From contig NZ_CP009241.1 in the NCBI RefSeq assembly GCF_000758525.1, positions 868,001 to 932,000 of the forward strand: a stretch of DNA of 64,000 bases. Reading direction: 5' to 3'. A program made the translations under genes and the position numbers. This stretch comes from Paenibacillus sp. FSL H7-0357. Its GTDB lineage: Bacteria; Bacillota; Bacilli; Paenibacillales; Paenibacillaceae. The notes under the pieces were generated by a model that was not told the DNA's origin, searched no databases, and saw only the letters and a list, made by a program, of their open reading frames with translations. Position 1 is the first letter of the stretch, and each line of letters opens with the position of its first letter. Of the stretch, positions 6,828 to 54,412 are shown in pieces.

Positions 6828-9011
6828 ATGAAGGAGAGAGGCCGCGAGGAAGAGCGTACCGGTTTTCAGGAGGGGGGTGCCTACGGAGAAGCTTACGATC
6901 TGCAGACGGATTTTGTGATGGTTTACGGAATTAATCCCTCAATGCCGTTACGGATTCAGCAATGGAAGGCGCAGGGATATCAGGTGCATTTGATGACAGG
7001 TGTATCCTGGGGAGGCTATCAGGATTACCTGAACGGTAATTTTGATGGTCGCACTCACTGGGACGAAGCGCAAAAATATAAGGATGGAGAGCGTATTATC
7101 CATGGAACATCGGTCGATATACCGTATATGGTACCGACAGTCGCTTACTCCGATTATCTGATTCAACAGATTCGTCCTGCTGTGGATGCGGGAGTTGATG
7201 CTATCCATCTGGAGGAGCCGGAATTCTGGGTGGAGGGCGGGTACTCTGAGGCATTTAAACGGGAATGGCGAAATTATTATAACGAGCCATGGATTCCACC
7301 TCATGAATCAGAGAATGCACAATATCACGCCTCCAAGCTGAAAGCCTATTTGTACACAAGGTGTTTGGATCGGCTTTGTTCAGCTCTCAAGGAATATTCG
7401 CTGGTTCGCTATGACCGGCCGCTGCGGTTTTTCGTACCGACACACAGTCTGATTAATTATACGCAGTGGCGGATTGTCAGTCCGGAATCAAGACTGCTTG
7501 ATCTGCCCTCCATCAATGGGTATATCGCCCAAGTATGGACAGGAACCTCACGCACAGCCAATGTTTACGAAGGCAACCGCGCGGAGAGAACATTTGAAAC
7601 AGCGTTTCTGGAATATGGAATTATGCAGGAGTTGGTACGCGGAACGGATCGCCGCGTGTGGTTCCTGCACGACCCCATAGAAGATGATCCCAAACGTACA
7701 TGGGAGGACTACAGGATAAATTATTTCAAGACGCTGACGGCATCCCTGCTGCATCCCGGGGTGTCCCATTATGAGGTTGCCCCATGGCCCAAGCGGATCT
7801 TCGAGGGGCAGTATCCCAGCGCGGACGGAACAGGCAAGGAAGGAATTCCTGCGGATTATGGGACCGTTTTGCTCACACTTATGCATGCCCTCGGCAACAT
7901 GGATCAACCGGATATTCGGGTCTTTGGAAACGATGTCAAGGTGGGGGTTTTGTTGGCTGATTCAGCCATGTACCAACGCATGCGCCCGGGTGTTGAAACT
8001 GCTGGCTTTATGATGAAGTATGACGGGACGAACGAAGTTGAACTGACGGACGAATATGCGCTCGAATTGCTGAACTTCTCTTCTTTTTACGGATTAACGC
8101 TTCCGCTTGTCAAGCATGGCCTGCCTGTAAGACCGGTTCAGCTCGATAATGCAAGACGATTTCCGGGTTATTTGGATGATTACCGGGTGTTGATCCTGAG
8201 CTATGAATTCATGAAGCCCGAGTACCCCGATCTTCACAGCACGTTGGCGCAATGGGTGAGAGACGGCGGAGCCTTGATCTATATCGGCGATGACAGTGAT
8301 CCATATCATCAGGTTAAGGAATGGTGGAACCAAGGCAAACGTCACTACCATTCCCCGCGCGAGCATCTTTTTGAAGGTCTGGGACTATCTCTTGATTCTT
8401 CAGAGAGAATGACGTCGATTGGCAAGGGGGTGCTGGTGTACTTGCCTGTTCGCCCCGAAAGCTTTGCAGAGAGTACGGCTGCGGGAAACAGGCTCCGTGA
8501 TGCGGTTCGGGAAGCGATGGCAGGCTTGAATGATCCTCAAATATGCTGGGAACCTGCAAATCACTTCATGCTTCAACGGGGCCCTTATGTTGTTGCCTCA
8601 GTGATGAGTGAGTCCGTCCATGAGCATCCGCTTGAATTAGCGGGCTGTTATGTGGATCTGTTTGATCCAGGGTTGCCTATTGTTAGACATGTTAAGGTAG
8701 AGCCGGGCCAACAGGCTCTCTTGTATGACCTCGAATATGACCATGCTGGCAACAGCGGGGTTATCGCAGCCTCTTCGAGAACGGAGTACTTCACGGAGGA
8801 TTCGAGTTCAATCGTTTTTTACGTCAAAGGGCCAAAAGCTGTACACGCAGCAGCGAGAATTCATTGTTCAGCTAAACCGGTGAGTGCAACGATCCATATC
8901 AACGAACAGGAAGCAGTGCTTCCTTTTGTGTGGGATGAGGAGACCCGAACGCTGCTCATTCGTTACGAGCATGATGCAGGGAGTGTTCGTATTCAGATTA
9001 ATAAACAATGA
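6828..9011 (+). CDS. Putative TIM-barrel glycosidase with GH42-like trimerization-type domain
   Basis: 727-aa protein of a family I cannot name. The first ~330 residues look like a (beta/alpha)8 barrel: repeated strands such as YQVHLMTGVSWGG and, near residue 125, DAIHLEEPEFW, where an acidic pair sits at a strand end as in retaining glycosidases. Residues about 360-560 resemble the glutamine-amidotransferase-like trimerization domain of GH42 beta-galactosidases (VLILSYEFMKPEYPDL, then ALIYIGDDSDPY). A beta-rich C-terminus follows. No signal peptide is seen. GGGAGA lies nine bases before the ATG. Its position among other cytosolic glycosidases supports a hydrolytic role on the same imported glycan; the sugar specificity is unknown. 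Confidence 0.6.
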   Translation: MKERGREEERTGFQEGGAYGEAYDLQTDFVMVYGINPSMPLRIQQWKAQGYQVHLMTGVSWGGYQDYLNGNFDGRTHWDEAQKYKDGERIIHGTSVDIPYMVPTVAYSDYLIQQIRPAVDAGVDAIHLEEPEFWVEGGYSEAFKREWRNYYNEPWIPPHESENAQYHASKLKAYLYTRCLDRLCSALKEYSLVRYDRPLRFFVPTHSLINYTQWRIVSPESRLLDLPSINGYIAQVWTGTSRTANVYEGNRAERTFETAFLEYGIMQELVRGTDRRVWFLHDPIEDDPKRTWEDYRINYFKTLTASLLHPGVSHYEVAPWPKRIFEGQYPSADGTGKEGIPADYGTVLLTLMHALGNMDQPDIRVFGNDVKVGVLLADSAMYQRMRPGVETAGFMMKYDGTNEVELTDEYALELLNFSSFYGLTLPLVKHGLPVRPVQLDNARRFPGYLDDYRVLILSYEFMKPEYPDLHSTLAQWVRDGGALIYIGDDSDPYHQVKEWWNQGKRHYHSPREHLFEGLGLSLDSSERMTSIGKGVLVYLPVRPESFAESTAAGNRLRDAVREAMAGLNDPQICWEPANHFMLQRGPYVVASVMSESVHEHPLELAGCYVDLFDPGLPIVRHVKVEPGQQALLYDLEYDHAGNSGVIAASSRTEYFTEDSSSIVFYVKGPKAVHAAARIHCSAKPVSATIHINEQEAVLPFVWDEETRTLLIRYEHDAGSVRIQINKQ

Positions 9012-9027
9012 TTGGAGATTGATTAGG

Positions 9028-11049
9028 ATGAAGACAAACATTCGCCCTCCAGCAATACCTTTGGTGACGGTTGATCCGTACTTTAGTGTATGGTCTATGG
9101 CTGACCGTTTGAGCGACGACTTTACAAGACATTGGACCGGCAAAAGAAATGCAATGACGGGATTAATTATTATTGACGGTACTCCATATCGATTTGCTGG
9201 CCGGGTCGAGCCGAATGCGGAAAACTATTATGCCGAACCGAAGGCGATGAAGCAACAGGAAGTTCAGCTAACACCTCTCTCCAGCACCTATTGTTATGAA
9301 GAATCGGGAGTCCGCTTACAGATGCGCTTTACCACACCGCTATTGATGGATAACCTGGAGCTCCTGTCACGACCGGCCTCTTATGTGCAGCTTTCCGTCT
9401 GCTCGGTGGATGATAAGCCCCATAACGTGCGCATCTACTTCGATGTCACTGCAGAATGGTGTGTCGACTCCAGTGATCAGCTGGTAGTATGGCAGCAGCA
9501 TGAGGAGGGCCAACTGGTTGTTCTTGAGATGAGTCATGAGGAACAAGCTTACTTAAACCGTTCCGGTGATGATTTGAGAATTGACTGGGGCCAGTTCTAT
9601 TTGGCAGTTGAAAAATCCCCTGAAATGCGGACCTATCTGGCTTCAGCTGAAATCAGAAAGCAATTTGTGCGCAAAGATGAGATTGTCCCAGGACTTAAGG
9701 GGGATATGCCGCAAGCTGTTCGTGATCACCAGCCTGTTATGGCCTGCACTTGGGATTGCGGGGAAGTAGGTGCTGCTGAAGTTTCAAATCTGTTCGTGCT
9801 GGCCTATGATGATGTTTATGCCATTGAATATTTCGGAGATAAGCTTCAGGCCTACTGGAAAAAGAGCGGAACAACGGCCCTTGGAATGATTGGGGATGCG
9901 TTCGCAGAGTATCCTGATCTCATCAAGAAGTGTACGGCATTCGACCAAAAGTTATGGGCGGACGGAGTACGTTCAGGAGGAGAGAAATACGCAGAGCTTC
10001 TGGTGCTGGCTTACCGGCAGGCGATCGCTGCGCACAAGCTGGTGACTGATTCTGATGGAAAGCTCTTATTTATGTCCAAGGAATGCTACAGCAATGGCTG
10101 TATTGCTACAGTGGATGTAAGTTACCCCTCCATTCCGTTGTTCTTGCTTTATAATCCGGAACTCGTTAAAGCGATGATGAGGCCGATTTTTAAATATGCA
10201 GCCAGCGATGCCTGGCCGTTCGAATTTGCTCCACATGACGTCGGACAATATCCAATTGCCAACGGGCAGGTTTATTCGGAGAATGCCTTAGAAGGTCAAA
10301 TGCCGGTTGAGGAATGCGGCAATATGCTGATTATGGCAGCCGCAGTTTGTCTGACGGATGGACACGCCGATTTCGCAACTGAGCAGGGGGAGCTTTTGTC
10401 CATTTGGGCCGATTATTTGCTTGAGTACGGGCTCGATCCTGAGAATCAGTTATGCACGGATGACTTTGCCGGCCATCTGGCACGAAACGCCAATTTATCG
10501 GTTAAGGCCATTATGGGCGTAGCGAGTTATTCCCTTCTTAAAGGTATGATGGGACATTCTGCTGAAGCTGAACGCTATAAGAAAGCGGCTGAAGAGATGG
10601 CGATTAAATGGGAGGAGCTGGCTAGAGATCAGGATCATTATAAGCTTGCTTTCGGCCAGGATGGAACGTGGAGCCTAAAGTATAACCTGATCTGGGATAT
10701 CCTCTTTGATACGCATATTTTTGATGAAGCCATTATTCAAAAAGAAGTCTCCTGGTACTTAAAGAAGCAGGATAAATACGGGATTCCGATGGATAGCAGA
10801 GCAGCCTATACCAAAGCTGATTGGCTTGTTTGGGCGGCCTCCCTGGCTTCCGGGCGGGAGGATTTTGTCAGCTTGATTGAACCCCTATGGGACGCTTTAA
10901 ATGAAACGCCAGATCGCGTTCCCTTTTCTGATTGGTATGACACGAATACCGCTAGGCAGATGAATTTTCAGCACCGAAGCGTTGTAGGCGGAATCTATAT
11001 CAAGCTCCTGAAGGATACGTGGGCGCTAGTTGGCAAAAAGGCTCTTTGA
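9028..11049 (+). CDS. DUF4964/DUF4965 glutaminase-A-like family protein
   Basis: 673 aa from the ATG at 9028, which has a GGAG box at 9014-9017 and a second purine run near 9025; the longer frame from 8884 overlaps the previous gene and is not favoured. The N-terminus IRPPAIPLVTVDPYFSVWSMAD is the signature of the DUF4964 domain of GtaA-type proteins, followed by DUF5127-like, DUF4965-like and DUF1793-like regions (the last a helical barrel region around DVGQYPIANGQ). Fungal relatives are called secreted glutaminases, yet bacterial members commonly sit in glycan loci. This one has no signal peptide and lies between glycosidase genes, so a glycoside-cleaving or glycan-handling role is at least as likely as glutamine hydrolysis. 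Confidence 0.7.
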   Translation: MKTNIRPPAIPLVTVDPYFSVWSMADRLSDDFTRHWTGKRNAMTGLIIIDGTPYRFAGRVEPNAENYYAEPKAMKQQEVQLTPLSSTYCYEESGVRLQMRFTTPLLMDNLELLSRPASYVQLSVCSVDDKPHNVRIYFDVTAEWCVDSSDQLVVWQQHEEGQLVVLEMSHEEQAYLNRSGDDLRIDWGQFYLAVEKSPEMRTYLASAEIRKQFVRKDEIVPGLKGDMPQAVRDHQPVMACTWDCGEVGAAEVSNLFVLAYDDVYAIEYFGDKLQAYWKKSGTTALGMIGDAFAEYPDLIKKCTAFDQKLWADGVRSGGEKYAELLVLAYRQAIAAHKLVTDSDGKLLFMSKECYSNGCIATVDVSYPSIPLFLLYNPELVKAMMRPIFKYAASDAWPFEFAPHDVGQYPIANGQVYSENALEGQMPVEECGNMLIMAAAVCLTDGHADFATEQGELLSIWADYLLEYGLDPENQLCTDDFAGHLARNANLSVKAIMGVASYSLLKGMMGHSAEAERYKKAAEEMAIKWEELARDQDHYKLAFGQDGTWSLKYNLIWDILFDTHIFDEAIIQKEVSWYLKKQDKYGIPMDSRAAYTKADWLVWAASLASGREDFVSLIEPLWDALNETPDRVPFSDWYDTNTARQMNFQHRSVVGGIYIKLLKDTWALVGKKAL

Positions 11050-11123: not shown

Positions 11124-14100
11124 ATGATAGATACACAGGAGCTGGGAAATCTATTTCAAAATCCGGGCATAACTTACAGACCGCAACCGTTCTGGTTTCT
11201 AAACCATGACTACAACCCGGAAATGCTGCGCTGGCAATTACAGGAAATGCATGAGAAAGGCATTGGCGGTGTTGTACTTCACTCGAGGCACGGCAAGACC
11301 GAAGAGTATTTCTCCGAGGCTTACTTTGATATGCTCGAAACTTGCATCGAGGAATGCAGCAGACTCGGTATGCAAACCTGGTTATATGATGAGGACAATT
11401 GGCCTAGCGGAACTTTCGGAGGCAAGTTGACCCAGCAATTCCCCGAGTACAGGATGCGTTATTTGCGGGTGGAAGAGAAGAGATATTCTCCAACGGATGG
11501 GCAGAGGGAATGCTTGATAGATTTTGCCTTAGAAGATCATCATTCATTGATTTCTATTCTGGCCTACCGCATAAAACAGAATGATGGGGAAAAGGTTGTT
11601 TTGCAGGATAAACCGTATGATTTGACCCATTTATACGGTCGATCCTGGCAACCGGAGGAAGACGGGGATTATGTAATCCTCGCGTTTTGGGAATGCGAGG
11701 TCGCTGAGAAGGTAACCTTTGCGCGAGGCTATTACTTGGATACGATGAATCCGGAAGCTGTGAATAAATTTATCGAACTGGGCTATGCACCATTCGATCG
11801 GTTGTCTGCACATTTTGGGACGAACATACAAGGAGTATTTACCGACGAGCCGGGGCTCATGATTCACGACGGATTTTCTGGAGTAGAAGCGATGAAAACA
11901 AGCGTGGATCATTTGGAGGAAAGCTTGCCGGGGGTGATTTTGGCATGGACGCGAAACCTTCCGGAGCGTTTCGAGCAGCACTGCGGATACTCGCTTCTCT
12001 CCCATCTCGGCTCCCTGCTTTTTCAGGTGGAAGATACAAGCCACAAAGTACGTGAAGATTATTATGCGGCTCTTACGCACTGGTATATCGATGCGTATCA
12101 CCGTGGATTAAGCTCATGGTGCGAAGCTCGCGGGCTGGCCTATATCGGTCATACGCTGGAAGAACCGATCTGGGGTCAGGCACGTTCGCAGGGGAATCAG
12201 ACGCAGGTGCTGCGGGAATTTGATTATCCCGGTGTCGATTATTTGCAAGCAGGTATCGGCACCAAAGAGAATCCCTATCGTATTCTGTCCGTCAAGTGCG
12301 CGTCGTCGGTGGCCCATATTGAAGGCAAAAATCGCGTCATTTGCGAGGCGTTTGGAGCCAGTGATCACGGGTATTCCATGCGTCAACGGAGACTTGATGC
12401 CAATTTTATGGCGTTTCTGGGCGTTAACTTGTTTATTCCCCATGCATTTTATTATTCATTCGAAGGGTACCGCAAGACGGATTTTCCGCAGACGGAATTT
12501 TATCATGCGCCCCACTGGGACCATTATAAAGCTTTTGCCGATTATATCGCCAGACTCAGCTTCATGGGGAGCATAGGTCATCATAATGCCCGTATTTTGC
12601 TGCTTAGCCCCGTGCATACGGTCTATCAGGAAATGTTCGACAATGGAAGGGCAGAGCTTAAGCCCGCTTCGGATGTGCTGCATGCTCTACTGTCCGATCG
12701 ATTAATTCGCAACCAGCTCGACTACGATTACGCCGACGACAGCCAAATCCAGAGTAGTTTTGCAGAACAGGGTCATTTAACGTTTACGAAGTCGCAGGAG
12801 AAGTATCGGGCTGTTATTTTGCCTCGTATGAAGGTTATGTCTGTCGCGTCGGCGGCCAAGCTGAACAAGTTCGTGGACCAAGGGGGGCTGCTGATCGCGA
12901 TCGGAGAAGTGCCATCGGATAGCTTTAACCAGACAGATGACCCGGAGCTGAATAAGTATTTGAACCCTCTTTTCCCGCAATCAGGGGAAGAAGAATGGCA
13001 TGTGTATGGACAAGGGAAAACGCTGCTGCTGTCCGAACCGAAGGTGACTGCCGATGATGCGCGATATTTGTGTGAACAGCTGCGGCAGTTTCCAGGAGTC
13101 GATCAAGTAACCGGACGCTGGTTCATACCGGAAACGGAGAAAGAACGGGTCATCGTGACTTGCCGGTGGGTAGAGGGCGAACAATACTTCTGGATGATGA
13201 ATTGGTCGGAGGAAACGGCGGAGATCCAATGCTTGACCCAACCAATGGAAAGGGTAGAGGAGTGGAAGCTGGAAAACGGCGAGCGAATTCTTCTTACACA
13301 AAGGGAGTCGAATGAATTCCGTCTAGTGCCTGGCGAACTGCGGATCGTTCGTATCGTCAATTCCGCTCCTGGGAAAATGCTGGAAGGGTTGTATTCCTTA
13401 GAGAAGAATATCCTGCTGCCCTCATCTTGGGATTTTAAGCTGGAAGATCCCAACGTGAAGGTTCTGGATCGTTGGGAAGTGACATTTAATGACCGCGAAT
13501 CACGGATGAATGCGGTGATGCCCGGCCAAACCAACACCTATCGAACCCGGCTCATGATTGATGCTTCGGCAATCGGCAAGGAGATACGACTGGTCACCGA
13601 TGATATTGATCAGTATGTGCCTTCACATATCGGTTTTTTATCCAGGCGCCGCAGTGTGGAGATTTATATCAACGGGCATAGACTGCCGGCGCTTGAGACT
13701 GCGGGCTGGCAGGATCCTTTTTTTAAAAGTGTGAATTTGACACCTTATGTGCATGCGGGTGAAAATTTGATCGAACTGCTAACCATCTCACTCCTGGAGC
13801 CTATGATTCGGGTAGCCTCCCCTTTATTTCTGATAGGAGATTTCGCACTAAATGAAGAAGGCGTATTAATTGCCAGTCCTCAGCCTATAACCGGATACTG
13901 GAGTGAACAGGGATATCCTCATTTATCGGGCAAGGCCGTTTATATGCAAAACTTTATGATGAGTGACATCAGGGTTGACGAAGCGCAGCAGCAAATCGAA
14001 CTGGAGCTTGAGGACGTAAGGGAATCGGCATCCGTGCTAATCAATGGACAATTCGTAGGAACATGTCTATGGCCGCCATATCGCTGGGACATCACAAAGG

Positions 14101-28021: not shown

Positions 28022-29950
28022 ATGAGCGCAATCGCCGGTATCTGCCAATTGCAGCACCATAATCTGAATCCTGATCAGGGACCGAGTCTTATGCAGCAGC
28101 TGAGCCGTTATCCTGCGGATGATGCCAGGGGCTGGCAGGGTCAGGGGATTTTCCTTGGTTGCCGTGCGCAGTGGATTACTCCACAATCCTTGAACGAAAA
28201 GCTGCCGTTTTATGATCCCGAGCGGAGGCTGGCAATTACAGCGGATGCCATTATCGACAACCGCAGCGAGCTGTTTGGGCAGCTTCAGGTGCCCTATGAA
28301 GACCGGGACACCATACCCGACAGCTTGCTCATCCTGCTCGCCTACGAGAAGTGGGGAGATCAGACACCCGTTCATCTGGTAGGAGACTTTGCCTTCATGA
28401 TCTGGGACGAGCGCAAGCGATCTCTTTTCGGAGCCAGAGACTTCTCCGGCAACCGGACGCTCTATTTTCATAGATCCACTGAAAGTTTCGCTTTTTGCAC
28501 AGTTATTCATCCGCTGCTTTCTATGCCGGGTGTAAGCCATAAGCTGAATGAAGAATGGGTCTCAGAGTTTCTGGCTATTCAGAATAGAGTCGATGCCACG
28601 GACTGCTTTTCAACGGTTTATCAAGCTATTGAACAGCTGCCTCCTTCACATTCCATGACCATCACCGGGGAGAAAATTACATTCTCCCGTTACTTTATAT
28701 TGCAGGCACCGCCTAAACTGCGTCTTGGCTCCAACGGGGAATACGAGGAAGCCTTCCGCGAAGTATTCGGACAGGCGGTCAAAGACAGGCTTCGGACCCA
28801 TCTTGCCGCCGGTGCCAACCTGAGCGGGGGACTTGACTCCGGCTCGGTAGTCAGCTTCGCTGCTGAAGAACTCCGTCGCCGCGGGAAACCATTGCATACC
28901 TTCAGTTATTATCCTGTAGACAGCTTTACCGGTTTTAATCTGGGCAAAAGGGTAGCAGATGAGCGTCCCTTTATTCAGGAGACGATTGATCATGTAGGGA
29001 ATATTGAGCCGAGCTTTCTGAACTTTCCCGAGCAGAGTCCTTATACCGAGATTGACGAATGGCTGGATATTCTGGAGATGCCCTACAAGTTCATTGAAAA
29101 TTCTTACTGGCTTAAAGGCATATTTGAACAGGCACAACAGCAGGGACTTGGTGTTCTGCTGAGTGGACAAAGAGGCAATTGGAGTGTTTCCTGGGGACCT
29201 GCGCTGGATTATCAGGCCAAGCTGATTCGTGAATTCCGGTGGCTCTCTTTCTACCGTGAGAATAAGCAATACAATCAGTCGATGGCAGCGAACCGCAGAA
29301 AGGTGCTGCAGATCGTCAGCAAAAAGGCCTTTCCGTCGCTTGAACGGCTGCTGCCCCGCAAACGGGAGATGCAGCTTGAGCTGATCCATCCCGATTTTGC
29401 CAAACGAACGGAGGTCCATGAACGTCTTCGGGAATTCAATATGGACCGTAGGCCCTCCTCGCAGACGGTTTATGATATCCGCCAGAAGCATTTTGAGCAG
29501 CCGCATATCTGGAATGTCAACGGAACAGTGGCTACCAAGATGTCGCTGAAGTACCGGGTATGGGACCGCGATCCCACGAATGATCTGCGCGTGATCCGCT
29601 TCTGCCTGTCCGTGCCGGAGGGACAGTTTGTCCAGAATGGTGTGGACCGTTCCCTGATTCGCAGAGCCATGGAGGGACGTCTGCCGGATGAGGTCAGAAT
29701 GAACCGGAAGCAGCGCGGGGTGCAGGGAGCAGACGGGATTCTCCGGATGCTGCCGCAGTGGGACAGCTTCCTCGGAGAGCTTCGGGAAATGATTAAGGAC
29801 CCCCGGACTTCAGCCTACTTGAACAACAATGTGCTTGCGGGATGTTTGGACCGGATTAGTGAGCCTAAACCGGAGATGATTTACAATTCGGAGTTCCGCC
29901 TCCTTACACGGGGACTTGTATTTTACCGCTTTCTGAAATCATTATCCTGA
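28022..29950 (+). CDS. Lasso peptide cyclase (asparagine synthetase-like, C protein)
   Basis: 642 aa. The ATG at 28022 has GGTGGAGG nine bases upstream; the frame start at 27989 has no box. The N-terminal glutaminase-like half starts MSAIAGIC, so the catalytic Cys2 of true asparagine synthetases is Ser here and glutamine hydrolysis is unlikely. The C-terminal ATP-pyrophosphatase half has the AMP-forming PP-loop SGGLDSGSVVSF (about residue 275). Lasso cyclases adenylate the ring Asp/Glu side chain and form the macrolactam with the core N-terminus. It is the first gene of the cluster, 31 bases before the precursor gene. Confidence 0.93.
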   Translation: MSAIAGICQLQHHNLNPDQGPSLMQQLSRYPADDARGWQGQGIFLGCRAQWITPQSLNEKLPFYDPERRLAITADAIIDNRSELFGQLQVPYEDRDTIPDSLLILLAYEKWGDQTPVHLVGDFAFMIWDERKRSLFGARDFSGNRTLYFHRSTESFAFCTVIHPLLSMPGVSHKLNEEWVSEFLAIQNRVDATDCFSTVYQAIEQLPPSHSMTITGEKITFSRYFILQAPPKLRLGSNGEYEEAFREVFGQAVKDRLRTHLAAGANLSGGLDSGSVVSFAAEELRRRGKPLHTFSYYPVDSFTGFNLGKRVADERPFIQETIDHVGNIEPSFLNFPEQSPYTEIDEWLDILEMPYKFIENSYWLKGIFEQAQQQGLGVLLSGQRGNWSVSWGPALDYQAKLIREFRWLSFYRENKQYNQSMAANRRKVLQIVSKKAFPSLERLLPRKREMQLELIHPDFAKRTEVHERLREFNMDRRPSSQTVYDIRQKHFEQPHIWNVNGTVATKMSLKYRVWDRDPTNDLRVIRFCLSVPEGQFVQNGVDRSLIRRAMEGRLPDEVRMNRKQRGVQGADGILRMLPQWDSFLGELREMIKDPRTSAYLNNNVLAGCLDRISEPKPEMIYNSEFRLLTRGLVFYRFLKSLS

Positions 29951-29981
29951 TAGCAAGACGCCTGAAAGGGGGTGAAAGAAT

Positions 29982-30107
29982 ATGAAAAAGGAATACAGCA
30001 AGCCTGCTTTGGAAGTGCTCGACGTTAAAATGACTATGGCTGGACCAGGATTTAAACTCGCCGACTCCTTCCAAGATGATCCGGATGAGATCGTGCACTA
30101 CTCCTAA
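29982..30107 (+). CDS. Lasso peptide precursor (paeninodin-like)
   Basis: 41-aa peptide, too short for most gene finders. Leader of 19 residues: MKKEYSKPALEVLDVKMTM, with the YxxPxL recognition element (Y5, P8, L10) and the near-invariant Thr at position -2 of the cleavage site. The core begins AGPGFKLAD, giving an Ala1-to-Asp9 ring, followed by the 13-residue tail SFQDDPDEIVHYS. Paeninodin has the same AGPG start, a 9-residue ring, an FQ-DPDE tail and a C-terminal Ser that is phosphorylated; the ring residues 5-8 (FKLA) and parts of the tail differ. RBS AAAGGGGGTGA is the strongest in the cluster. A hairpin follows immediately. Confidence 0.93.
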   Translation: MKKEYSKPALEVLDVKMTMAGPGFKLADSFQDDPDEIVHYS

Positions 30108-30126
30108 GACTGCTTTTAGTCGTGCG

Positions 30127-30172
30127 GCCCTCATCCCCCTATGCTTGCTGAAGGGGGGGAAGGGCTATCTTT
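30127..30172 (+). terminator. Strong hairpin between precursor and kinase genes
   Basis: Bases 30127-30140 (GCCCTCATCCCCCT) pair with 30152-30165 (AGGGGGGGAAGGGC), with two central mismatches and an 11-base loop, followed by TATCTTTTC. In RiPP clusters such a partial terminator after the precursor keeps precursor mRNA above that of the enzymes. Confidence 0.75.
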
Positions 30173-30221
30173 TCATCATCACCTTTTAGAACATGTGAAT
30201 TTACAGGATGGAGTGAATCGT

Positions 30222-31154
30222 ATGGCGAGTATCGTTCAAGGCTTGGCTTATAAAGCATTTGGTCTGCAAATTCATAGTGAATTTCCCTTGCCGGAGCTTC
30301 CTCTTACTGACCAGCCGGGGTTGATCGGCAGTGTGTCGGTCATTCAAGAAGACTTGTCGGAGCGTTGGCAGGCCATTCCGAAGATCACACCCAGCCTGGG
30401 TGTATCAGGGAACGAAGTTATGTTTGAAGCCAAGGACACCGCTATTTTCTCCATTCGGGACGGCAGTACGATTACAGTGTCACCTGCACCAGGTGCGGAC
30501 GGCGACTGTGTACGGCTCTTTATTCTGGGAAGCTGCATGGGCGTTCTGCTGATGCAAAAAAAAATTCTCCCTCTTCACGGCAGTGCGCTTGTACTGGACA
30601 ACAAGGCTTACGCGCTGGTTGGGCGTTCAGGGGCAGGTAAATCGACACTCGCCTCCTATTTGATGGATCAGGGCCACCTGCTGATCAGCGACGACGTTAT
30701 TCCCGTTATGGTGCAAAATGGACATCCATTAGCAGTTCCAGGCTATCCGCAGCAAAAGTTGTGGCAGCAGAGCTTGGACTATTTGGGAATGAATTCGTCC
30801 TCTTACCGCCCGTTATTCGAACGTGAAACTAAATTTGCCGTTCCCGTGCATGACCGCTTCCAGGCTGAACCGCTGCCGCTCGCAGGTGTGTTTGAACTGT
30901 CGGCGGCCGGAGAAAGCCCGGTAACCCTGCACGCCATCAGCGGCCTGGAACGGTTCCATACTTTATTTAATCACACTTATCAAAAGGCAATGATTGACCG
31001 GATTGGGATCCGAGAATGGCATTTTGGCATGTTGGCCTCTTTCGTTAACCGGCTGCCGATGTACCGGCTTACCCGTCCTGAAGCAGGCTTCAGTGCCCCG
31101 GCACAAGCTTCGCTTATATATGAAACGATCCAACGTCAAGTGGAGGAGAGATGA
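30222..31154 (+). CDS. HPr-kinase-like lasso peptide kinase (PadeK type)
   Basis: 310 aa from the ATG at 30222 (GGATGGAG box); the longer frame from 30141 runs into the hairpin and is rejected. The C-terminal half is an HPr kinase/phosphorylase-like domain: PLHGSALVLDNKAYALVGRSGAGKST (P-loop) and the acidic LLISDDVIPV motif (Walker B-like). The first ~110 residues are specific to the PadeK/ThcoK group. By homology it would phosphorylate the hydroxyl of the C-terminal Ser of the precursor, which is present here. It is 67 bases before the RRE gene's ATG on the operon's downstream arm, separated by four bases from it after its own stop. Confidence 0.9.
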   Translation: MASIVQGLAYKAFGLQIHSEFPLPELPLTDQPGLIGSVSVIQEDLSERWQAIPKITPSLGVSGNEVMFEAKDTAIFSIRDGSTITVSPAPGADGDCVRLFILGSCMGVLLMQKKILPLHGSALVLDNKAYALVGRSGAGKSTLASYLMDQGHLLISDDVIPVMVQNGHPLAVPGYPQQKLWQQSLDYLGMNSSSYRPLFERETKFAVPVHDRFQAEPLPLAGVFELSAAGESPVTLHAISGLERFHTLFNHTYQKAMIDRIGIREWHFGMLASFVNRLPMYRLTRPEAGFSAPAQASLIYETIQRQVEER

Positions 31155-31158
31155 ACCT

Positions 31159-31458
31159 ATGAATACTACAAATATTTTGTCCCTCGAAACGGTCCTTGTG
31201 CAGCGTGAGGGCAATATCGCCAGCGACATGGACGGCGAGAAAGTCATGCTGAATGTGAAGAATGGAAAGTACTACAATCTGGGTGAGGTTGGCGGAGAGA
31301 TTTGGTCGGCGCTGGCATCACCGGTTACCGTAAGACGGATTGTGGAGACCATCCAGGAGATTTTTGAAGTTTCGGCGGAGCTTGCCGAGCAGGATGTGGT
31401 TGCTTTTGTGCAAAGTCTGCTGGATGAGGATCTCGTCGTAAATGTTAGCGGATCATGA
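31159..31458 (+). CDS. PqqD-like RiPP recognition element (lasso B1 protein)
   Basis: 99 aa from the ATG at 31159, four bases after the kinase stop, with GGAGGAGAG upstream. The sequence fits the winged-helix RRE fold: DMDGEKVMLNVKNGKYYNLG (beta hairpin), EVGGEIWSALASPVTVRRIV and a C-terminal helix ending FVQSLLDEDLVV. B1 proteins bind the YxxPxL part of the leader and hand the precursor to the B2 protease. It shares an ATGA stop/start overlap with B2, so both are made in equal amounts. Confidence 0.93.
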   Translation: MNTTNILSLETVLVQREGNIASDMDGEKVMLNVKNGKYYNLGEVGGEIWSALASPVTVRRIVETIQEIFEVSAELAEQDVVAFVQSLLDEDLVVNVSGS

Positions 31459-31913
31459 CAACCCTCCGTCGCATCCGCCTGTTGCTGACCGTTGACAAGG
31501 CTGCTGTGGCGCTGATTCCAGAGGCATTATGGAGGCTTTTTCTGGTGCGAATCCAGCTGCTTTTTCCGTTTGCAAGAACGGCTCCACGGCTGGGGATACA
31601 GTCTCAGGAGACTTCCGAGGTGTCCAATGCGGCCGATATTCCCCGGATTAAGCATATTACGAAAGCGATTCGTGTCATCAGCCGTTATACACCCTGGAAA
31701 AGCACCTGTATGGTCCGTGCAGTGGCTGGACTACAGATGTTAGAGAGACGCGGGATTGAAAGCACACTCTATATGGGGGTTGCCAGAGATAAGCAAGGTC
31801 AAATGATCGCCCATGCCTGGCTGCGCAGCGGAGCTTATTATGTATCCGGCGATGATGCCATGCAGGGTTTTGTAGTTGTGGAGAAGTTTGCCAAAGTGTT
31901 ACAAGCCGAGTAA
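31455..31913 (+). CDS. Transglutaminase-like leader protease (lasso B2 protein)
   Basis: 152 aa. The catalytic triad of lasso B2 proteases is visible: Cys in WKSTCMVRAVAG (about residue 86), His in MIAHAWLRSG (about 119), Asp in VSGDDAM (about 131). It removes the leader after the conserved Thr-x site so that the cyclase can use the new N-terminal Ala. The N-terminal ~40 residues form a helical extension. The start ATG overlaps the B1 stop (ATGA) and the exporter gene follows 13 bases after the stop. Confidence 0.93.
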   Translation: MTTLRRIRLLLTVDKAAVALIPEALWRLFLVRIQLLFPFARTAPRLGIQSQETSEVSNAADIPRIKHITKAIRVISRYTPWKSTCMVRAVAGLQMLERRGIESTLYMGVARDKQGQMIAHAWLRSGAYYVSGDDAMQGFVVVEKFAKVLQAE

Positions 31914-31926
31914 TCGAGGTGGGACC

Positions 31927-33726
31927 ATGCAAGCCATAATCTATTACATCCGGCAGCTTCAGCGCTTGTCCGGAGTCAAACTGTACCTTAACCTCCTTGG
32001 CATGGTCATCAGCGGACTGCTGGAGAGCTCAGCCATTCTGCTGCTTGTACCGATGCTGGGAATGGCCGGGATTCAGCTAGGCGGAACAGGAGCGGGGTAC
32101 AGTATACCTATGCTCGGTTTCCTGTCAGAGCTGCCGCAGACGACGGCGCTTGGGATTGTGCTCGGCGGGTATGTCTTTATCGTACTCTGTCAAAATTTGA
32201 TTTCGCGTTTCGTCGCGGTCCGTAATGTGGAGATTCAGCAGAGCTACAGCCGGCAGCTGCGGTATGATGTTTACAGCGCACTTTTGCGGTCAGAGTGGGC
32301 CTTTTTCCTCAAAAAGCGCACCTCGGACCTTATCAACGTAATGACCACGGAAATGGCGAGGGTGCTCGCTGGAATCAGCTGTTTTCTGCAGTTTCTCACT
32401 TCGCTCCTGTTCACACTGGTGCAGATCGGCTTCGCCTTCTGGCTGTCCCCTAAGATGACTCTCTCTGTACTGGTATGTGCGGTCCTGCTGTCCTTGTTCT
32501 CCCGCAGATTCATCCGCAAAGCCAAGAGGCTGGGCAGTCGCAGCTCCCAGCTCGGCCAGATGTATCTAGCCGGAATCACGGACCAACTGAACGGAATCAA
32601 GGATATCAAAAGCAATAATCTGGAGCATTCCCGGTTGGACTGGCTTCATGGGTTTACCGCTGAGGTCAAAAAAGAGCAGCTGGACTATACAAGACTGCGC
32701 TCGAATTCCCAGCTGCTGTACAAAATGTCGTCGACGCTCCTGATCGCTGCGTTTATCTTCGTGTCTTTCCGGTTTCTGCACGCGGAGGGCCCATCTTTCC
32801 TGCTGGTTATCCTCGTGTTTGCCCGGCTGTGGCCGACTTTTGCTGCCCTTCAGTCGCTGATGGAGCAGCTCGCCTCTGTCCTGCCTTCCTTCAAGCAGCT
32901 TCAGGCGCTGCAGGAAGAATGCCGGCAGGCTGCTGAACACGGTGCGGAAGGGGAAATTGCGAAGCAAGTTACACCTATGGCTTTGAAGCAAAGCCTGGAA
33001 GCCCGGAACGTGAACTTCCGTTATGATCAGCAGGAGCCGCAATATTCGCTCCAGGGGGTAAATGTGGTGATTCCGGCTAATAAGATGACGGCGATTGTCG
33101 GACGTTCGGGCGCAGGAAAAAGCACGCTAGTCGATCTGCTCATGGGCCTGATGCAGCCGGAATCGGGCGAGATCTGGGCCGACGGTCAGTCCATTTCAGG
33201 AGACAACCTCCTGTCTTACCGGCGCTCCATCGGTTATGTAGCGCAGGATCCTTTTCTGTACAACGCGACGATCCGCGATAATCTGACGATGATCAAACCG
33301 GATGCCAGCGAGGAAGAACTGTGGGAAGCGCTGGAGTTTGCTTCTTCGGCCGATTTTGTCCGCAAGCTGCCGGAAGGACTGGATACGCTGATCGGTGACC
33401 GGGGCATCCGCCTGTCCGGCGGCGAACGGCAGCGTCTGGTGCTGGCACGCGCGATTATCCGCAAGCCTTCCATCCTGGTCCTGGATGAGGCAACAAGCGC
33501 GCTCGATACCGAAAACGAGAAGCGGATTCAGGAAGCGCTCGAGCGGCTAAAGCATTCCGTGACGGTAATCGTGATCGCCCACCGGTTGTCCACCATCCGG
33601 GGAGCCGATCAGATTCTGGTCATCGACCAGGGGCGGGTCATCCAGCAGGGCGTGTTCGGCGGGCTGGCCTCAGAAAAAGGGGGCATGTTCAGCCGGTTGC
33701 TCAGCAGTCAGGAAGAGGCGATGTAG
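31927..33726 (+). CDS. Lasso peptide ABC exporter (D protein), fused membrane and ATPase domains
   Basis: 599 aa from the ATG at 31927 (GAGGTGGG box); an earlier in-frame start at 31876 lies inside B2. The exporter-type membrane domain with six spans covers about residues 15-310, and the ATPase domain residues 355-590: Walker A GRSGAGKST, Q-loop GYVAQDPFLYN, signature LSGGERQRLVLARAI, Walker B ILVLDEATSALD, H-loop IAHRLSTI. No peptidase C39 domain, in keeping with the separate B2 protease. It exports the mature lasso peptide and gives self-protection in related systems. Last gene of the operon. Confidence 0.94.
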   Translation: MQAIIYYIRQLQRLSGVKLYLNLLGMVISGLLESSAILLLVPMLGMAGIQLGGTGAGYSIPMLGFLSELPQTTALGIVLGGYVFIVLCQNLISRFVAVRNVEIQQSYSRQLRYDVYSALLRSEWAFFLKKRTSDLINVMTTEMARVLAGISCFLQFLTSLLFTLVQIGFAFWLSPKMTLSVLVCAVLLSLFSRRFIRKAKRLGSRSSQLGQMYLAGITDQLNGIKDIKSNNLEHSRLDWLHGFTAEVKKEQLDYTRLRSNSQLLYKMSSTLLIAAFIFVSFRFLHAEGPSFLLVILVFARLWPTFAALQSLMEQLASVLPSFKQLQALQEECRQAAEHGAEGEIAKQVTPMALKQSLEARNVNFRYDQQEPQYSLQGVNVVIPANKMTAIVGRSGAGKSTLVDLLMGLMQPESGEIWADGQSISGDNLLSYRRSIGYVAQDPFLYNATIRDNLTMIKPDASEEELWEALEFASSADFVRKLPEGLDTLIGDRGIRLSGGERQRLVLARAIIRKPSILVLDEATSALDTENEKRIQEALERLKHSVTVIVIAHRLSTIRGADQILVIDQGRVIQQGVFGGLASEKGGMFSRLLSSQEEAM

Positions 33727-33802
33727 GCGACGCACAGTTTCGGGTTGAAGCTGGCGAGGCCTGTTGACGACTGGGATATCTTAGAGGGATAAATAGATGA
33801 CA

Positions 33803-33907
33803 GGGCGAATGGACGAATAGATGAGTAGACGAATGGACGAATGAACGAATGGATGAAAGAACGAATTGGACGAATGAACGAATGAACGAATAGACAAATA
33901 GACAAAT
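33803..33907 (+). repeat. Tandem 8-bp repeat array, 13 units
   Basis: Thirteen 8-base units of consensus GRACGAAT run from 33803 to 33907 with one extra T at 33867; examples are GGACGAAT (33811, 33835, 33868), GAACGAAT (33843, 33859, 33876, 33884) and AGACAAAT (33892, 33900). The array lies in the 3' untranslated region of the lasso exporter gene, just ahead of its terminator. The unit is not a multiple of three, and reading frames across it are not coding. Confidence 0.85.
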
Positions 33908-33913
33908 AGCATG

Positions 33914-33949
33914 GCCCCTCTCTACCGAAATCGGCAGGGAGGGGCTTTT
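33914..33949 (+). terminator. Terminator of the lasso peptide operon
   Basis: GCCCCTC (33914-33920) and GAGGGGC (33939-33945) form a stem extended by CCGA/TCGG inside the loop; T4 follows. It comes directly after the 8-bp repeat array. Confidence 0.75.
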
Positions 33950-33994
33950 GGTGTCACATTTATCAGCCAATTTGGCATGAAGCTTGAAAATGAT

Positions 33995-34059
33995 TGCACT
34001 TTGTGCAGCAGAATTCCACCGAAAGCAGGTATATTTCGGTTCTACTGCACTTTGTGCAG
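33995..34059. repeat. Pair of palindromic TGCACTTTGTGCAG elements
   Basis: TGCACTTTGTGCAG occurs at 33995-34008 and again at 34046-34059, a 51-bp period; each is a palindrome (TGCAC-TTT-GTGCA). Related degenerate GTGCAA and CTAGTGTAYGAARTACA pieces recur near 35550 and 36000-36110. This looks like a short intergenic repeat family. No gene is seen between the lasso terminator and 34128. Confidence 0.6.
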
Positions 34060-34128
34060 TCAAATTTCGAAGAACCGCCGATATGCAGCTATATTTGAGA
34101 AATCTAGTGTACGAAATACAACAGAATG

Positions 34129-34272
34129 CTAGTTGAGCTCCAAAAGAAAGGAATCTAGTTGAACGCCATCATCTTCCCAAAAACATATTTCGCAAATATC
34201 ATAAGTTCCTGGTGGTTTAAGTTCTAAAGTTTTATATCCACAGCATGGACAAGCTCCTTGAATTACGATCAT
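34129..34272 (-). CDS. Short CPCC-family cysteine-rich protein
   Basis: 47 aa. MIVIQGACPCCGYKTL, then PPGTYDICEICFWEDDGVQ: the two CxxC-type pairs (CPCC and CEIC) and the FWEDD motif identify the Cys-rich CPCC family, a small zinc-ribbon-like domain of unknown function. Family members usually run past the WEDD motif for another 30-60 residues, while this one ends after LDSFLLELN, so it is either a short form or truncated at the repeat-rich junction near 34130. It starts 28 bases after the Nif3-like gene's stop and is AT-rich like it. No strong RBS is seen. Confidence 0.65.
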   Translation of the reverse strand: MIVIQGACPCCGYKTLELKPPGTYDICEICFWEDDGVQLDSFLLELN

Positions 34273-34299
34273 GTTTTCTTTAACTTGCACTTCTATTTA

Positions 34300-35064
34300 T
34301 TATCCCGTCACTTCGAAATGTTCTTCATGTAGTTGTAATATTTCTATATCCTTAAATTTCTCTTGAAGTTTTTGAGCAAAAGACTTTACTCCGAATATCT
34401 CAGTAAAGGTATGGCTTCCAACAATAATATTCATATCTATGAACTTAGCATATTGAATTGTGTAGAGTGTCTTTTCACCAGTTATGTAAACATCACAATT
34501 ACTATTCATAGCATCTCTCAACTGATTTGTTCCATTACCTGCACCTGTGACCATACCTATTCTCTTAATTTCTTTGTTATTATTCTTTTGAAAATATATT
34601 TTTTCACCCAATAAACAAGTCATTTTTTCTACCAATTTCTCTAATGGTATTGGAGAGTCAAACTCCCCAATACCTATTGCACTATGACCTTCGAAATGAC
34701 GAGATTGTTGGACGACTTTACTGACTCCTAGCAGTTTAAGTAATGAATTGCATGTTCCAAAATCAATATAATCCAATGGCAAATGAATATAGAAGTGTGC
34801 AATATTATGTTCTTTTAATAACTCTATGCACTGCTCCTTCATCCCATAAACAAAATCCCATGCATCATGATGGGTAACTATTAAATGGACATTCTTCTCA
34901 GCAGCCTGCAAGACTATCTCAGGAGTAATATTTGTTGCATAACCAATTCTTTCATAATTATTCAATGAAAAATTACAAAAACCATACTCTTCATCTTCTT
35001 TAAAGTCTATAAGCAATTGACCAAATAATTCATATATATGTGATCTGAATTGTTGAACAATCAT
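34300..35064 (-). CDS. Nif3-like dinuclear metal center protein
   Basis: 254 aa, GGAGGG eight bases before the ATG. NIF3/YqfO (DUF34) features: GYATNITPEIVLQAAEKNVHLIVTHHDAWDF, whose His pair is part of the dinuclear metal site; IYIHLPLDY-like strand FYIHLPLDYIDFG; VVQQSRHFEGHSAIGIGEF; and the C-terminal VGSHTFTEIFGVKSFAQKL with further metal ligands. The family is often annotated as GTP cyclohydrolase I type 2 homolog, but its role is unsettled. Base composition is markedly more AT-rich than the flanking genes, suggesting horizontal acquisition with the CPCC gene. Confidence 0.85.
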   Translation of the reverse strand: MIVQQFRSHIYELFGQLLIDFKEDEEYGFCNFSLNNYERIGYATNITPEIVLQAAEKNVHLIVTHHDAWDFVYGMKEQCIELLKEHNIAHFYIHLPLDYIDFGTCNSLLKLLGVSKVVQQSRHFEGHSAIGIGEFDSPIPLEKLVEKMTCLLGEKIYFQKNNNKEIKRIGMVTGAGNGTNQLRDAMNSNCDVYITGEKTLYTIQYAKFIDMNIIVGSHTFTEIFGVKSFAQKLQEKFKDIEILQLHEEHFEVTG

Positions 35065-35377
35065 CAGTGTGTCCCTCCATGATTATTTATTATTTCAAGC
35101 GGTTTCGCCTAACTCCTAATCCACGCACTCGCATATCCCTCTCATAAAGCTTGATAAGCGAGTTTGCTTAATACCCCTCCGTAGAGTGATAGACGAAGCT
35201 ATTCATCATCTTCGACTTCCGTTGTCATCAGATCTGTGGACTTTAGATGCAAAGGATATTTTCGATGCTGCCAAGAGGGATGTATCTGAAATACTTATCA
35301 TTGTGTTCGCCTCTTGTTACTTCAAACTGCCGGTTAGCTTAATGAAGCATCGTCAGTCCAATACTTTATTTTTCAGT

Positions 35378-35528
35378 CTATATAGATTGAACTTGAGAAT
35401 ATACATTTAGGGAAAAGCGGCGGAGGGGAAGTATGGAATTGGAGGAGTGACAGCGGCCGGAAGTCCAAACATTCTCTATAGTCACGGCCAATCCCAAAAT
35501 AGAAGAATTATAAGTTCAATCTATATAG
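35378..35528 (+). repeat. MITE-like repeat, copy B
   Basis: 151 bp bounded by CTATATAGATTGAACTT (from 35378) and AAGTTCAATCTATATAG (ending 35528), a perfect terminal inverted repeat. The interior (GGCGGAGGGGAAGTATGG, GGAGGAGTGACAGCGGCC, GGAAGTCCAAACATTC) aligns with copy C and with the reverse of copy A, but is the most diverged of the three. No transposase is encoded. Confidence 0.82.
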
Positions 35529-35694
35529 AACTTTATTTTCTCCTGACATCTAGTGTATGAAGTACACCAGATTCCTTGATAGTTCTTACTATAAATAGTG
35601 AAAATGCTCTCTAAGCCCATCGACGCTATAACAGAGCTCAGCTTCCGCATATGGGCACTGGGTGTTCGACACACACAATTTGGGGCACGCGCAA

Positions 35695-35835
35695 TGCTTA
35701 CTCACCCAATGCTCGGCACTTATGTATCGGTTTACCCAACGCCCCGCACACGCGGTACTCCGCTCACTCAAAACTCAGTTCACCCAACGCCTCACACACG
35801 CGATACCCTGCTCACCCATCGCCACACACATACTT
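35695..35835 (+). repeat. Degenerate 32-bp direct repeats
   Basis: Two 32-base units at 35730-35761 and 35778-35809 share GTTYACCCAACGCC, CACACGCG and TAC blocks; partial units flank them at about 35695-35729, 35762-35777 and 35810-35835. The spacing (48 bases between full units, with a 16-base half unit in between) and the drift between copies are not those of a CRISPR. The rest of 35065-36301 holds no gene that I can support. Confidence 0.55.
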
Positions 35836-36162
35836 CTCTTGTGCCGTCCTCCGATTAAGCACGCGAAATCATCACTCCGCCGCAATCCCAAGGTTAGCTT
35901 ATATAGATGAAGGTTTGATTTGGACAGCAGCCGAGTTAGATGTAGTTACTGCAGCTATTTGGTGCCGCGGCGGCCGTTTTTAGGAGTTAGATGTAGTCTG
36001 TGCAACTAAAAACAGGAATTTGCTCACTTTTAGCTGAATTCCTCAAAATAGATGTAAGGAGTGCAATTATATCCATATCGAACACGAAAAGCTGTATTAT
36101 AACTGCACGAAATACAACTAACCAAACAAAGGGTGGAACCCGAACTCCCACCTGTACTCGCA

Positions 36163-36198
36163 CTCGAACCGCACTATGAACTCGAACCGCACTATGAA
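36163..36198 (+). repeat. 18-bp perfect tandem duplication
   Basis: CTCGAACCGCACTATGAA occurs twice head to tail (36163-36180 and 36181-36198) in non-coding sequence downstream of the nucleotidyltransferase gene. It is preceded by a related CTCGCA/CTCGAA run. Confidence 0.85.
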
Positions 36199-36301
36199 CC
36201 CAAAGCCAAACCCAAGCCACAGGCGTGTATCTCCGTCCACGTTGTACAATTGTATTTGGCCCGCCCTGTAGCAGCTGCCTTATCACACTTATGTAAATAT
36301 G

Positions 36302-37486
36302 TTAATTCTCTTTGCCGGTTAGTTTCCGCCAAGTCCATAAGAAGGGGCGTAGGGGGAAATAAAGAAAATGCAGTGGCTTCGGCAGGGGCAGCGTTTTCTC
36401 ATCCACCGCGTAAGGATAAAGGAAGCCCGCTGCATACAGGAACTGATGCCACGGCGTAAGAATCGCCGGCTGATAGTATTTGTAATGCCGCTCCACCTCG
36501 GGCTCCAGGGGCGGATTGTGCAGATTAACCATACGTGCCACATAAAAGAGTGCAAGCTGTGCCAACCGGTGAGCCTTCGGCTTGTCCGTCAACCCGGACA
36601 GACCGGGAGCAATCGGCGCCTCCAGCAAATCCGCCGCGAGGATCAAGGCTTGCCCACCAACGCTGTCGTAATTATAACGCCGGAGCAGCCCGGTCAACAC
36701 GCCGGCGTCGGGCTCTTGCAGAAGCAGCTGTTTGATATCCAACAGCCATCTCAGCCTCGACCAGCCATGCCTTGCCCCATGCGCAGCCAGAAACAGGAAC
36801 AAATCCTCCCTGCCCAAGTAATGGACGTTTTGTCCGAGCTGGCTGCTTGTCCGTGCATGTTTCCAAAGCTCATCAAAATCCGGCTCCTTAGAAGGCCCGG
36901 GACTTAATCGCCAATGAACCTCAACCTTGATGTTTTTGGCGGGGTGATTGAAGGTGTTGTGATGTTCGCGCCACTTCCAGTCTCCCAATATGCTCTCGAA
37001 TTCCTCTTCTTTCACGTAACCGAGAGAGACCAGCAATGCTTCCGTCTCGGTCAGCTGTTCCATCGGCACAATAAAATCGAGGTCACGCGAGGTGCGCAGC
37101 GAGATATCACCGTATAAATCCTGTGCAAGCACCGGACCCTTCAGAAACAGAGAACGGATATTCAGCCGGGCAAGCGATTCGCCGATATTCCCCATTTCAC
37201 CGCTGAGCTGAAGCATTTGGACGGTATTTCTGCGGTACTCCCATTTCAAACGCTGGGTAACCAACGACGGTACAGATTCACCTTGCATGCGGCTAAGCTT
37301 GGGATATAAAAAAGGATAAACGCGGTGATGCAGCGATAGCCGGATCATCAGCTCCCAGTCGATATCCGCGAACCGCTCCGGATTCCGCTCCGCCATATCA
37401 TCGATGCTGTCAGCTTTAAGAAGTGCAAGAAGAAGTAATACTTCCTTAGATAAGCTCCTTTTATCAAGGGTATACCGGTCAGTCAT
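36302..37486 (-). CDS. Nucleotidyltransferase family protein (PF14907 type)
   Basis: 394 aa; AAGGAGAG precedes the ATG. The pol-beta-like catalytic motif is visible as LFLKGPVLAQDLYGDISLRTSRDLDFIVP (G-p-v-l, then DLDFIV with the two metal-binding Asp, residues ~115-145). Later VEVHWRLSP (third acidic position) and FLAAHGARHGWSRLRWLLDIKQLL are typical of this family. Such 'NTP_transf_5' proteins are often encoded in lasso peptide and other RiPP clusters of Firmicutes, where they may add a nucleotide or other group, though their chemistry is largely unproven. This gene lies 2.5 kb downstream of the lasso exporter on the opposite strand. Confidence 0.85.
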   Translation of the reverse strand: MTDRYTLDKRSLSKEVLLLLALLKADSIDDMAERNPERFADIDWELMIRLSLHHRVYPFLYPKLSRMQGESVPSLVTQRLKWEYRRNTVQMLQLSGEMGNIGESLARLNIRSLFLKGPVLAQDLYGDISLRTSRDLDFIVPMEQLTETEALLVSLGYVKEEEFESILGDWKWREHHNTFNHPAKNIKVEVHWRLSPGPSKEPDFDELWKHARTSSQLGQNVHYLGREDLFLFLAAHGARHGWSRLRWLLDIKQLLLQEPDAGVLTGLLRRYNYDSVGGQALILAADLLEAPIAPGLSGLTDKPKAHRLAQLALFYVARMVNLHNPPLEPEVERHYKYYQPAILTPWHQFLYAAGFLYPYAVDEKTLPLPKPLHFLYFPLRPFLWTWRKLTGKEN

Positions 37487-48844: not shown

Positions 48845-53572
<4,728 letters not shown>

Positions 53573-53649
53573 TAGTAAAGACGCAGATTCGTTTCGGATT
53601 CAGTTTTCAGGAATTAAGGTTCCTGAAGCATTTACGCTGTAAATGCCCG

Positions 53650-53766
53650 TTTGGTGGCGATAGCGGAGGGGTTCCACGCGTACCCATCCCGAACACGACC
53701 GTTAAGCCCTCCAGCGCCGATGGTACTTGGACCGAAGGGTCCTGGGAGAGTAGGACGCCGCCAAGC
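53650..53766 (+). rRNA. rrf: 5S ribosomal RNA
   Basis: About 117 bases: TTTGGTGGCGATAGCGGAGG at the 5' end, CCCATCCCGAACACGACCGT in the middle and GAGAGTAGGACGCCGCCAAG at the 3' end. It follows 23S by 77 bases. Confidence 0.96.
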
Positions 53767-53823: not shown

Positions 53824-53900
<77 letters not shown>

Positions 53901-53903
53901 TTT

Positions 53904-53979
53904 TCCCTGATAGCTCAGTTGGTAGAGCACTCGACTGTTAATCGAGTTGTCACAGGTTCGAGTCCTGTTCGGGGAGCCA
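53904..53979 (+). tRNA. tRNA-Asn (GTT)
   Basis: Acceptor TCCCTGA/TCGGGGA, anticodon GTT in CGACTGTTAATCG, CCA encoded. Confidence 0.97.
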
Positions 53980-53983
53980 TTAT

Positions 53984-54076
53984 GGAGAGGTGTCCGAGTT
54001 TGGCCGAAGGAGCACGATTGGAAATCGTGTAGGCGCCACAAGCGTCTCGAGGGTTCGAATCCCTCTCTCTCCGCCA
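53984..54076 (+). tRNA. tRNA-Ser (GGA)
   Basis: 93 bases with a long variable arm (GTAGGCGCCACAAGCGTCTC), anticodon GGA in GATTGGAAATC, CCA encoded. Confidence 0.97.
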
Positions 54077-54094
54077 CAAATTTTCAACAAGCAT

Positions 54095-54166: not shown

Positions 54167-54172
54167 TATCAT

Positions 54173-54331: not shown

Positions 54332-54412
<81 letters not shown>

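Follow-up and report, generated by a model that had tools for sequence, protein, structure and literature searches.

Gene cluster and precursor peptide

The sequence analysed is a 64,000-nucleotide stretch of Paenibacillus sp. FSL H7-0357 (contig NZ_CP009241.1, positions 868,001 to 932,000 of the forward strand), called the window here, and its numbering is used throughout. At 28022-33726 it carries six adjacent plus-strand genes in the order C-A-K-B1-B2-D, all open, followed by a convergent seventh gene, N. Features are given below; RRE denotes the RiPP (ribosomally synthesized and post-translationally modified peptide) recognition element.

C, 28022-29950, plus strand: lasso macrolactam cyclase, asparagine-synthase type (PF00733, E 6e-29), with PP-loop SGGLDS
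A, 29982-30107, plus strand: precursor, 41 aa (NF033524, 58.5 bits, cut-off 27)
Leader Tyr(-15) codon, 29994-29996, plus strand: first residue of the RRE-binding YxxP motif, placed by analogy with PbaA W-15, P-12 and L-10
Core AGPGFKLADSFQDDPDEIVHYS, 30039-30104, plus strand: 22 residues (20-41 of A) by translation, ring Ala1-Asp9 predicted
K, 30222-31154, plus strand: HPr-kinase-like precursor kinase, with GRSGAGKST, His119, Lys140, Asp157 and Asp158
B1, 31159-31458, plus strand: discrete RRE (NF033536, 120 bits, cut-off 80), with Gly42 and Asp79
B1 Asp79 codon GAT, 31393-31395, plus strand: predicted to bind the leader Tyr
B2, 31455-31913, plus strand: leader peptidase (NF033537, 98.5 bits, cut-off 33), with Cys85, His120 and Asp133; its start overlaps the B1 stop
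D, 31927-33726, plus strand: ABC exporter (PF00664, PF00005), with GRSGAGKST, LSGGERQR and LDEATS
N, 36302-37486, minus strand: nucleotidyltransferase (PF14907, E 2e-58), convergent with the cluster

The window cluster belongs to the paeninodin family of lasso peptide clusters, a known family to which it adds a new member. A, B1 and B2 passed the family cut-offs of NCBI, the gene order is that given for paeninodin-type clusters in PMC5067487, and the kinase carries the conserved His-Lys-Asp-Asp motif named in PMC9266682 and the precursor a terminal Ser. The six genes and their intact catalytic motifs (SGGLDS in C, the kinase P-loop, Cys/His/Asp in B2, the Walker motifs in D) had been recognised in an initial annotation and were confirmed. 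All six were matched in identical order in 19/19 related named Paenibacillus loci, which shows that the cluster is not a chance arrangement; in one of these (L016), K and D each had a best match that covered part of the gene only. These 19 loci come largely from the same species as those of the genus survey below, so the two sets are not independent.

Residues 1-19 of A form the leader, with YSKPAL and Thr(-2), and the core ends in Ser, the predicted phosphorylation site. The Ala1-Asp9 ring is predicted by analogy with paeninodin. Among the 44 cores preceded by a leader with Tyr at the first motif place (Tyr-leader cores), the first residue and position 9 were Ala/Asp in 42 and Leu/Asp in 2, and the C-terminal Ser was present in 44/44. 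Locus L223 (genome G262, same family) encodes MKKQYSKPSLEVLDVHQTMAGPGTSTPDAFQPDPDEDVHYDS, the paeninodin precursor, identical in every letter to the sequence that PMC11594732 prints for P. dendritiformis P1CEA1 (core also in PMC12427821). Comparison with this printed sequence bore out that the window core differs from paeninodin. That the peptide is new, as initially proposed, stood in part: a string search across 5.39 million published papers found the paeninodin strings and did not find the core string of AGPGFKLADSFQDDPDEIVHYS, but the protein database has an identical precursor on 18 contigs. A protein search with A gave 18 matches, 17 with a Tyr leader and one (P0018) with Trp, and close relatives in the database already carry the name paeninodin family lasso peptide. 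Nor is the cluster one of a small class, as had been supposed, for a paeninodin-type RRE scored above the cut-off in 248/394 genomes of the family.

Occurrence of the nucleotidyltransferase gene

N had not been listed in the initial annotation, which had called the cluster complete; the six genes are indeed intact, and the convergent gene at 36302-37486 has to be added. N was found at the same convergent site in 19/19 of the related named loci (in L010 as a fragment only). Within the host genus (100 genomes), where presence was scored at E <=1e-20 against the window N, it occurred in 72/72 genomes with a paeninodin-type B1 and in 0/28 without (Fisher p 2e-25, uncorrected for shared descent). 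Among these 28, the three genomes G180, G189 and G198 carry a locus of the linear polyphosphorylated peptide (LPP) type whose N is more distant; in G220 another RRE adjoins a cyclase-like open reading frame (ORF), and N is absent.

Convergent N genes lay 91-2582 bases from D in 40/44 Tyr-leader loci (in L116 in two pieces), and in the remaining four at 10.1, 10.6, 10.1 and 7.0 kb, the last being the paeninodin locus. Three further genomes of the genus of the paeninodin locus, all with a strong B1, have PF14907 9.6 kb away from B1 (split in two in G264); PF14907 was not found in three tested genomes of that genus with only weak RRE matches. The divided genes are located at G264:C2:400720-402979 and in L116 around 12007-12500. 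A string of three polysaccharide genes (group 1 glycosyltransferase, polysaccharide pyruvyl transferase, NAD-dependent epimerase) separates D from N at the paeninodin locus, which fits the remark in PMC13381572 that such clusters often neighbour capsular polysaccharide loci.

In the window, the interval from D to N (33726-36302) holds a CPCC-type ORF, a NIF3-like gene on the minus strand and repeat-rich DNA; N is closer to D in the other 39 Tyr-leader loci with N in reach. Split systems with N-B1-B2-D and no C and K within 9 kb were observed at L141-L158 of the host genus; their precursor lies elsewhere, about 8-22 kb away in several genomes, and the neighbouring ORFs of L141 look polysaccharide-type.

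Lys116-Gly117, Arg131, Asp135 and Asp137 of N were invariant in 38 sequences, and its predicted structure has a pLDDT (predicted local distance difference test) of 91.5. A nucleotidyltransferase of this kind adds hexoses to phosphorylated Ser in pseudomycoidin, and accompaniment of the cluster by a PF14907-type N, taken as the mark of that type, was found in the window. N is predicted to modify the phosphorylated Ser.

Leader motif and RRE residue 79

Tyr(-15), Pro(-12) and Leu(-10) of the window leader occupy the positions of Trp, Pro and Leu in PbaA, and B1 aligned with the PbaB1 structure 9x90 at E 5.6e-26, gapless over residues 5-93. PMC13381572 (2026) describes Trp as nearly invariant at the first motif place of paeninodin-like precursors. 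The window has YSKP instead of WxxP; since paeninodin itself has YSKP, WxxP does not define the family. The same paper ascribes selectivity to Gly42 and Gln79 of PbaB1 versus Asn33 and Asp70 of LppB, whose Asp binds the leader Tyr; Asp79 is the corresponding residue of the window B1.

RRE matches were collected as 144 rows from 140 loci and the window, and the 134 rows scoring 100 bits or more were retained; the ten rows below 100 bits were seven of L161-L167 and second matches in L178, L182 and L202. The loci are not a random sample: they comprise all host-genus RRE matches except the weak ones of G241 and G193, plus 60 of the best-scoring places listed in other genera. For 43/134 rows the leader was taken from elsewhere in the same genome. 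Fifteen rows with Trp plus other letters (three with Trp plus Tyr) were scored as Trp, the other strings being judged chance ORFs by eye. For the tree, row L136 was set to Trp by hand; its precursor then showed the Trp leader MTKKAWQKP.

Gly42 was present in 134/134 rows. Asp79 accompanied the Tyr leader in 44/44 rows, and in the 87 Trp-leader rows residue 79 was Gln in 62, His in 12 and Asp in 13 (three of the 134 rows are unlabelled). No Tyr leader with Gln79 or His79 occurred among the 134 rows. Paeninodin is itself Tyr/Asp79, as are its relatives L292-L294, which lie outside these rows. As Tyr never occurs with Gln or His and Trp occurs also with Asp, Asp79 looks permissive for the leader residue, and Gln79 and His79 look restrictive. 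Published binding data point the same way: the D79A variant of PadeB1 binds its leader at 150 nM versus 5.3 nM (PMC5067487, Table 1, 2016), and PbaB1, with Gln79, binds the Tyr version of its own leader at ~40 uM (PMC13381572).

Statistical proof of correlated evolution between the leader and residue 79 was sought and abandoned, as the tree needs only about two leader changes. An independent-pairs test had 1-2 pairs only, too few for significance, and a single Tyr clade was not rejected by the approximately unbiased (AU) test (p 0.16, 58 rows). The Tyr/Asp79 link thus rests on the published binding data and not on statistics.

Two arrangements among the loci are recorded here. L127-L134, L138 and L139 have B1-B2 with Asp79, Trp leaders of another type (KVWEKPEVKELKV...YSFS) and A apart from B1, and they nest inside the Asp79 group on the tree. 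L225 (G390) has four near-identical tandem precursors followed by one kinase-RRE-peptidase set.

Proposed pathway

The likely product of the cluster together with N is a 22-residue lasso peptide with its last Ser phosphorylated and a sugar on the phosphate. By homology with known systems, B1 would bind the leader through Tyr(-15), Pro(-12) and Leu(-10), Asp79 holding the Tyr hydroxyl, and K would phosphorylate the C-terminal Ser of the precursor. The leader would then be presented by B1 to B2 for cleavage after Met(-1), C would join Ala1 to Asp9 around the tail, N would add a hexose or hexose phosphate to the phosphorylated Ser, and D would export the finished peptide. Predicted monoisotopic masses are 2389.086 for the lasso, 2469.053 with phosphate and 2631.105 with phosphate and hexose. 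The initial annotation had proposed a search for the core minus water with and without 80 Da; since N belongs to the system, the mass to seek includes the hexose as well.

A broader reading is offered tentatively, at somewhat less than an even chance. N would be a constant partner throughout the Tyr-leader branch, including the type locus; native paeninodin and its relatives would bear a phosphosugar, and the molecule obtained in E. coli would be an intermediate. N, with a polymerase-beta-type fold, would be a phosphosugar or glycosyl transferase acting on Ser-phosphate, and Tyr(-15)/Asp79 would be a second recognition channel beside Trp/Gln, both in one cell. No report of a constant N partner or of the Tyr/Asp79 pair was found in the literature covered, which did not include the founding paeninodin and pseudomycoidin papers.

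What is at stake is the parts list of the best-studied family of phosphorylated lasso peptides. Every paeninodin-type cluster surveyed in the host genus is accompanied by N, a nucleotidyltransferase-fold enzyme of unsettled chemistry that also lies near the paeninodin locus. Because of this company, searches of native strains for core plus phosphate may have sought the wrong mass. The Tyr/Asp79 loci also offer a test in nature of the idea, put forward in 2026, that Trp and Tyr leaders separate the lasso and LPP pathways.

Weighing of alternatives

Several points weigh against the proposed pathway. Product, phosphorylation and glycosylation are predictions from the genes. C scored 390.5 bits (E 1.5e-116) against the lasso cyclase model NF033535 and K 28.4 bits (E 1.4e-6) against Hpr_kinase_C, below the curated cut-offs of these general models (525 and, in Pfam, 33.3). 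The best Foldseek match to the N model was at E 1.5e-3, with none at <=1e-3, and the likeness of PsmN of pseudomycoidin to the window N is one of description. Asp79 is not exclusive to Tyr leaders, being carried by 13/87 Trp rows. N lies 2.6 kb from D on the opposite strand, with two unrelated ORFs between them, and is transcribed towards D. Finally, deletion of the LPP-pathway homologue of N had no effect in B. subtilis (PMC13381572, section 7).

The last two points also favour the strongest alternative, under which the product is a (poly)phosphorylated lasso peptide and no more, in line with descriptions of paeninodin, and N is a neighbour from another pathway. According to reviews, paeninodin was produced in E. 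coli from a cluster lacking N, and, with polysaccharide genes separating N from D at the paeninodin locus, N could act there. However, the co-occurrence of N with B1 is perfect in the host genus despite varied placement of N (same strand up- or downstream of B1, opposite strand upstream, or convergent), and other lasso clusters have N between B2 and D, several with N fused to B2 (PMC8498205). This alternative is considered unlikely, at about one chance in four, and the phosphorylated, sugar-bearing lasso peptide is preferred.

A silent or decaying cluster that yields no product appears improbable. Promoter-like sites (10 versus 12.1 expected) and terminator-like sites (10 versus 10.5 expected) gave no signal above chance, native P. 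alginolyticus had no detectable pba or lpp product (PMC13381572), and decay occurs in relatives, with K and D in pieces in L016/L118 and N in pieces in L010/L116. Yet the seven genes of the window all have open reading frames and intact motifs, and leader, Asp9 and terminal Ser are kept in 44/44 Tyr loci while core positions 5-8 vary, as would be expected under selection.

An LPP system, with which the window shares the YxxP leader, kinase, Asp at the Tyr-binding place of the RRE, N and D, is refuted, since C and B2 are present where LPP clusters have no cyclase and an SpI peptidase in place of B2, and is hardly credible given also Gly and not Asn at RRE position 42, the assignment of A to the paeninodin family by NF033524 and the SpI-like genes of the host genome, none of which lies within 258 kb of the window RRE.

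Coexisting clusters and surroundings

No LPP locus was found in the host genome. Its second PqqD-like gene adjoins a radical SAM protein: in L056 (host genome 7530000-7546000), local positions 4998-9063 on the minus strand encode a radical SAM/SPASM protein, a PqqD-like RRE and an M16-type peptidase. In three genomes of the host genus (G231, G253, G254), a Tyr/Asp79 lasso cluster coexists with an LPP-type cluster whose RRE, the second of the genome, has SpI next to it and whose precursors carry YIAPAVLEQQEIVFET; mutual exclusion of Tyr-leader lasso and LPP clusters is thereby ruled out. G185 and G245 each have one Tyr/Asp79 and one Trp/Gln79 lasso cluster.

Elsewhere in the window, a complete rRNA operon (16S, 23S, 5S) lies at 48845-53766, followed by 14 tRNA genes at 53824-55199 on the plus strand; the long minus-strand ORFs across this region are not genes. 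Directly after the tRNA cluster, at 55270-56474 on the minus strand, is an insertion sequence that contains one ORF of transposase helix-turn-helix type and one with an rve integrase core.

Comparison with known systems

The resemblance to the pade cluster of Paenibacillus dendritiformis, noted in the initial annotation, held on protein comparison with the paeninodin locus L223 (48-62% identity: C 57%, K 48%, B1 50%, B2 50%, D 62%). Both share the C-A-K-B1-B2-D order, the YSKP leader, B1 Asp79, and cores of 22-23 residues with an AGPG start, Asp9 and a terminal Ser. The core sequences differ, although 29 of the first 40 precursor residues are equal, and N is 2.6 kb from D in the window versus 7.0 kb at the paeninodin locus.

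Pseudomycoidin (psm, Bacillus pseudomycoides) has, like the window, both a kinase and a nucleotidyltransferase N, a likeness set by description. Its core, AGPGKRLVDQVFEDEDEQGALHHS, also starts with AGPG and ends in Ser (PMC12427821), and differs from the window core; N is convergent in the window, whereas Firmicute N clusters are described with N between B2 and D. The pba cluster of Paenibacillus alginolyticus (PbaB1, structure 9x90) has RRE Gly42 in common with the window B1 and differs in combining a WxxP leader with Gln79, where the window combines YxxP with Asp79. LPP systems share the Tyr leader, the Tyr-binding Asp, the kinase, N and the exporter with the window; they have no cyclase, an SpI peptidase and Asn in place of Gly42, whereas the window has C, B2 and Gly42.

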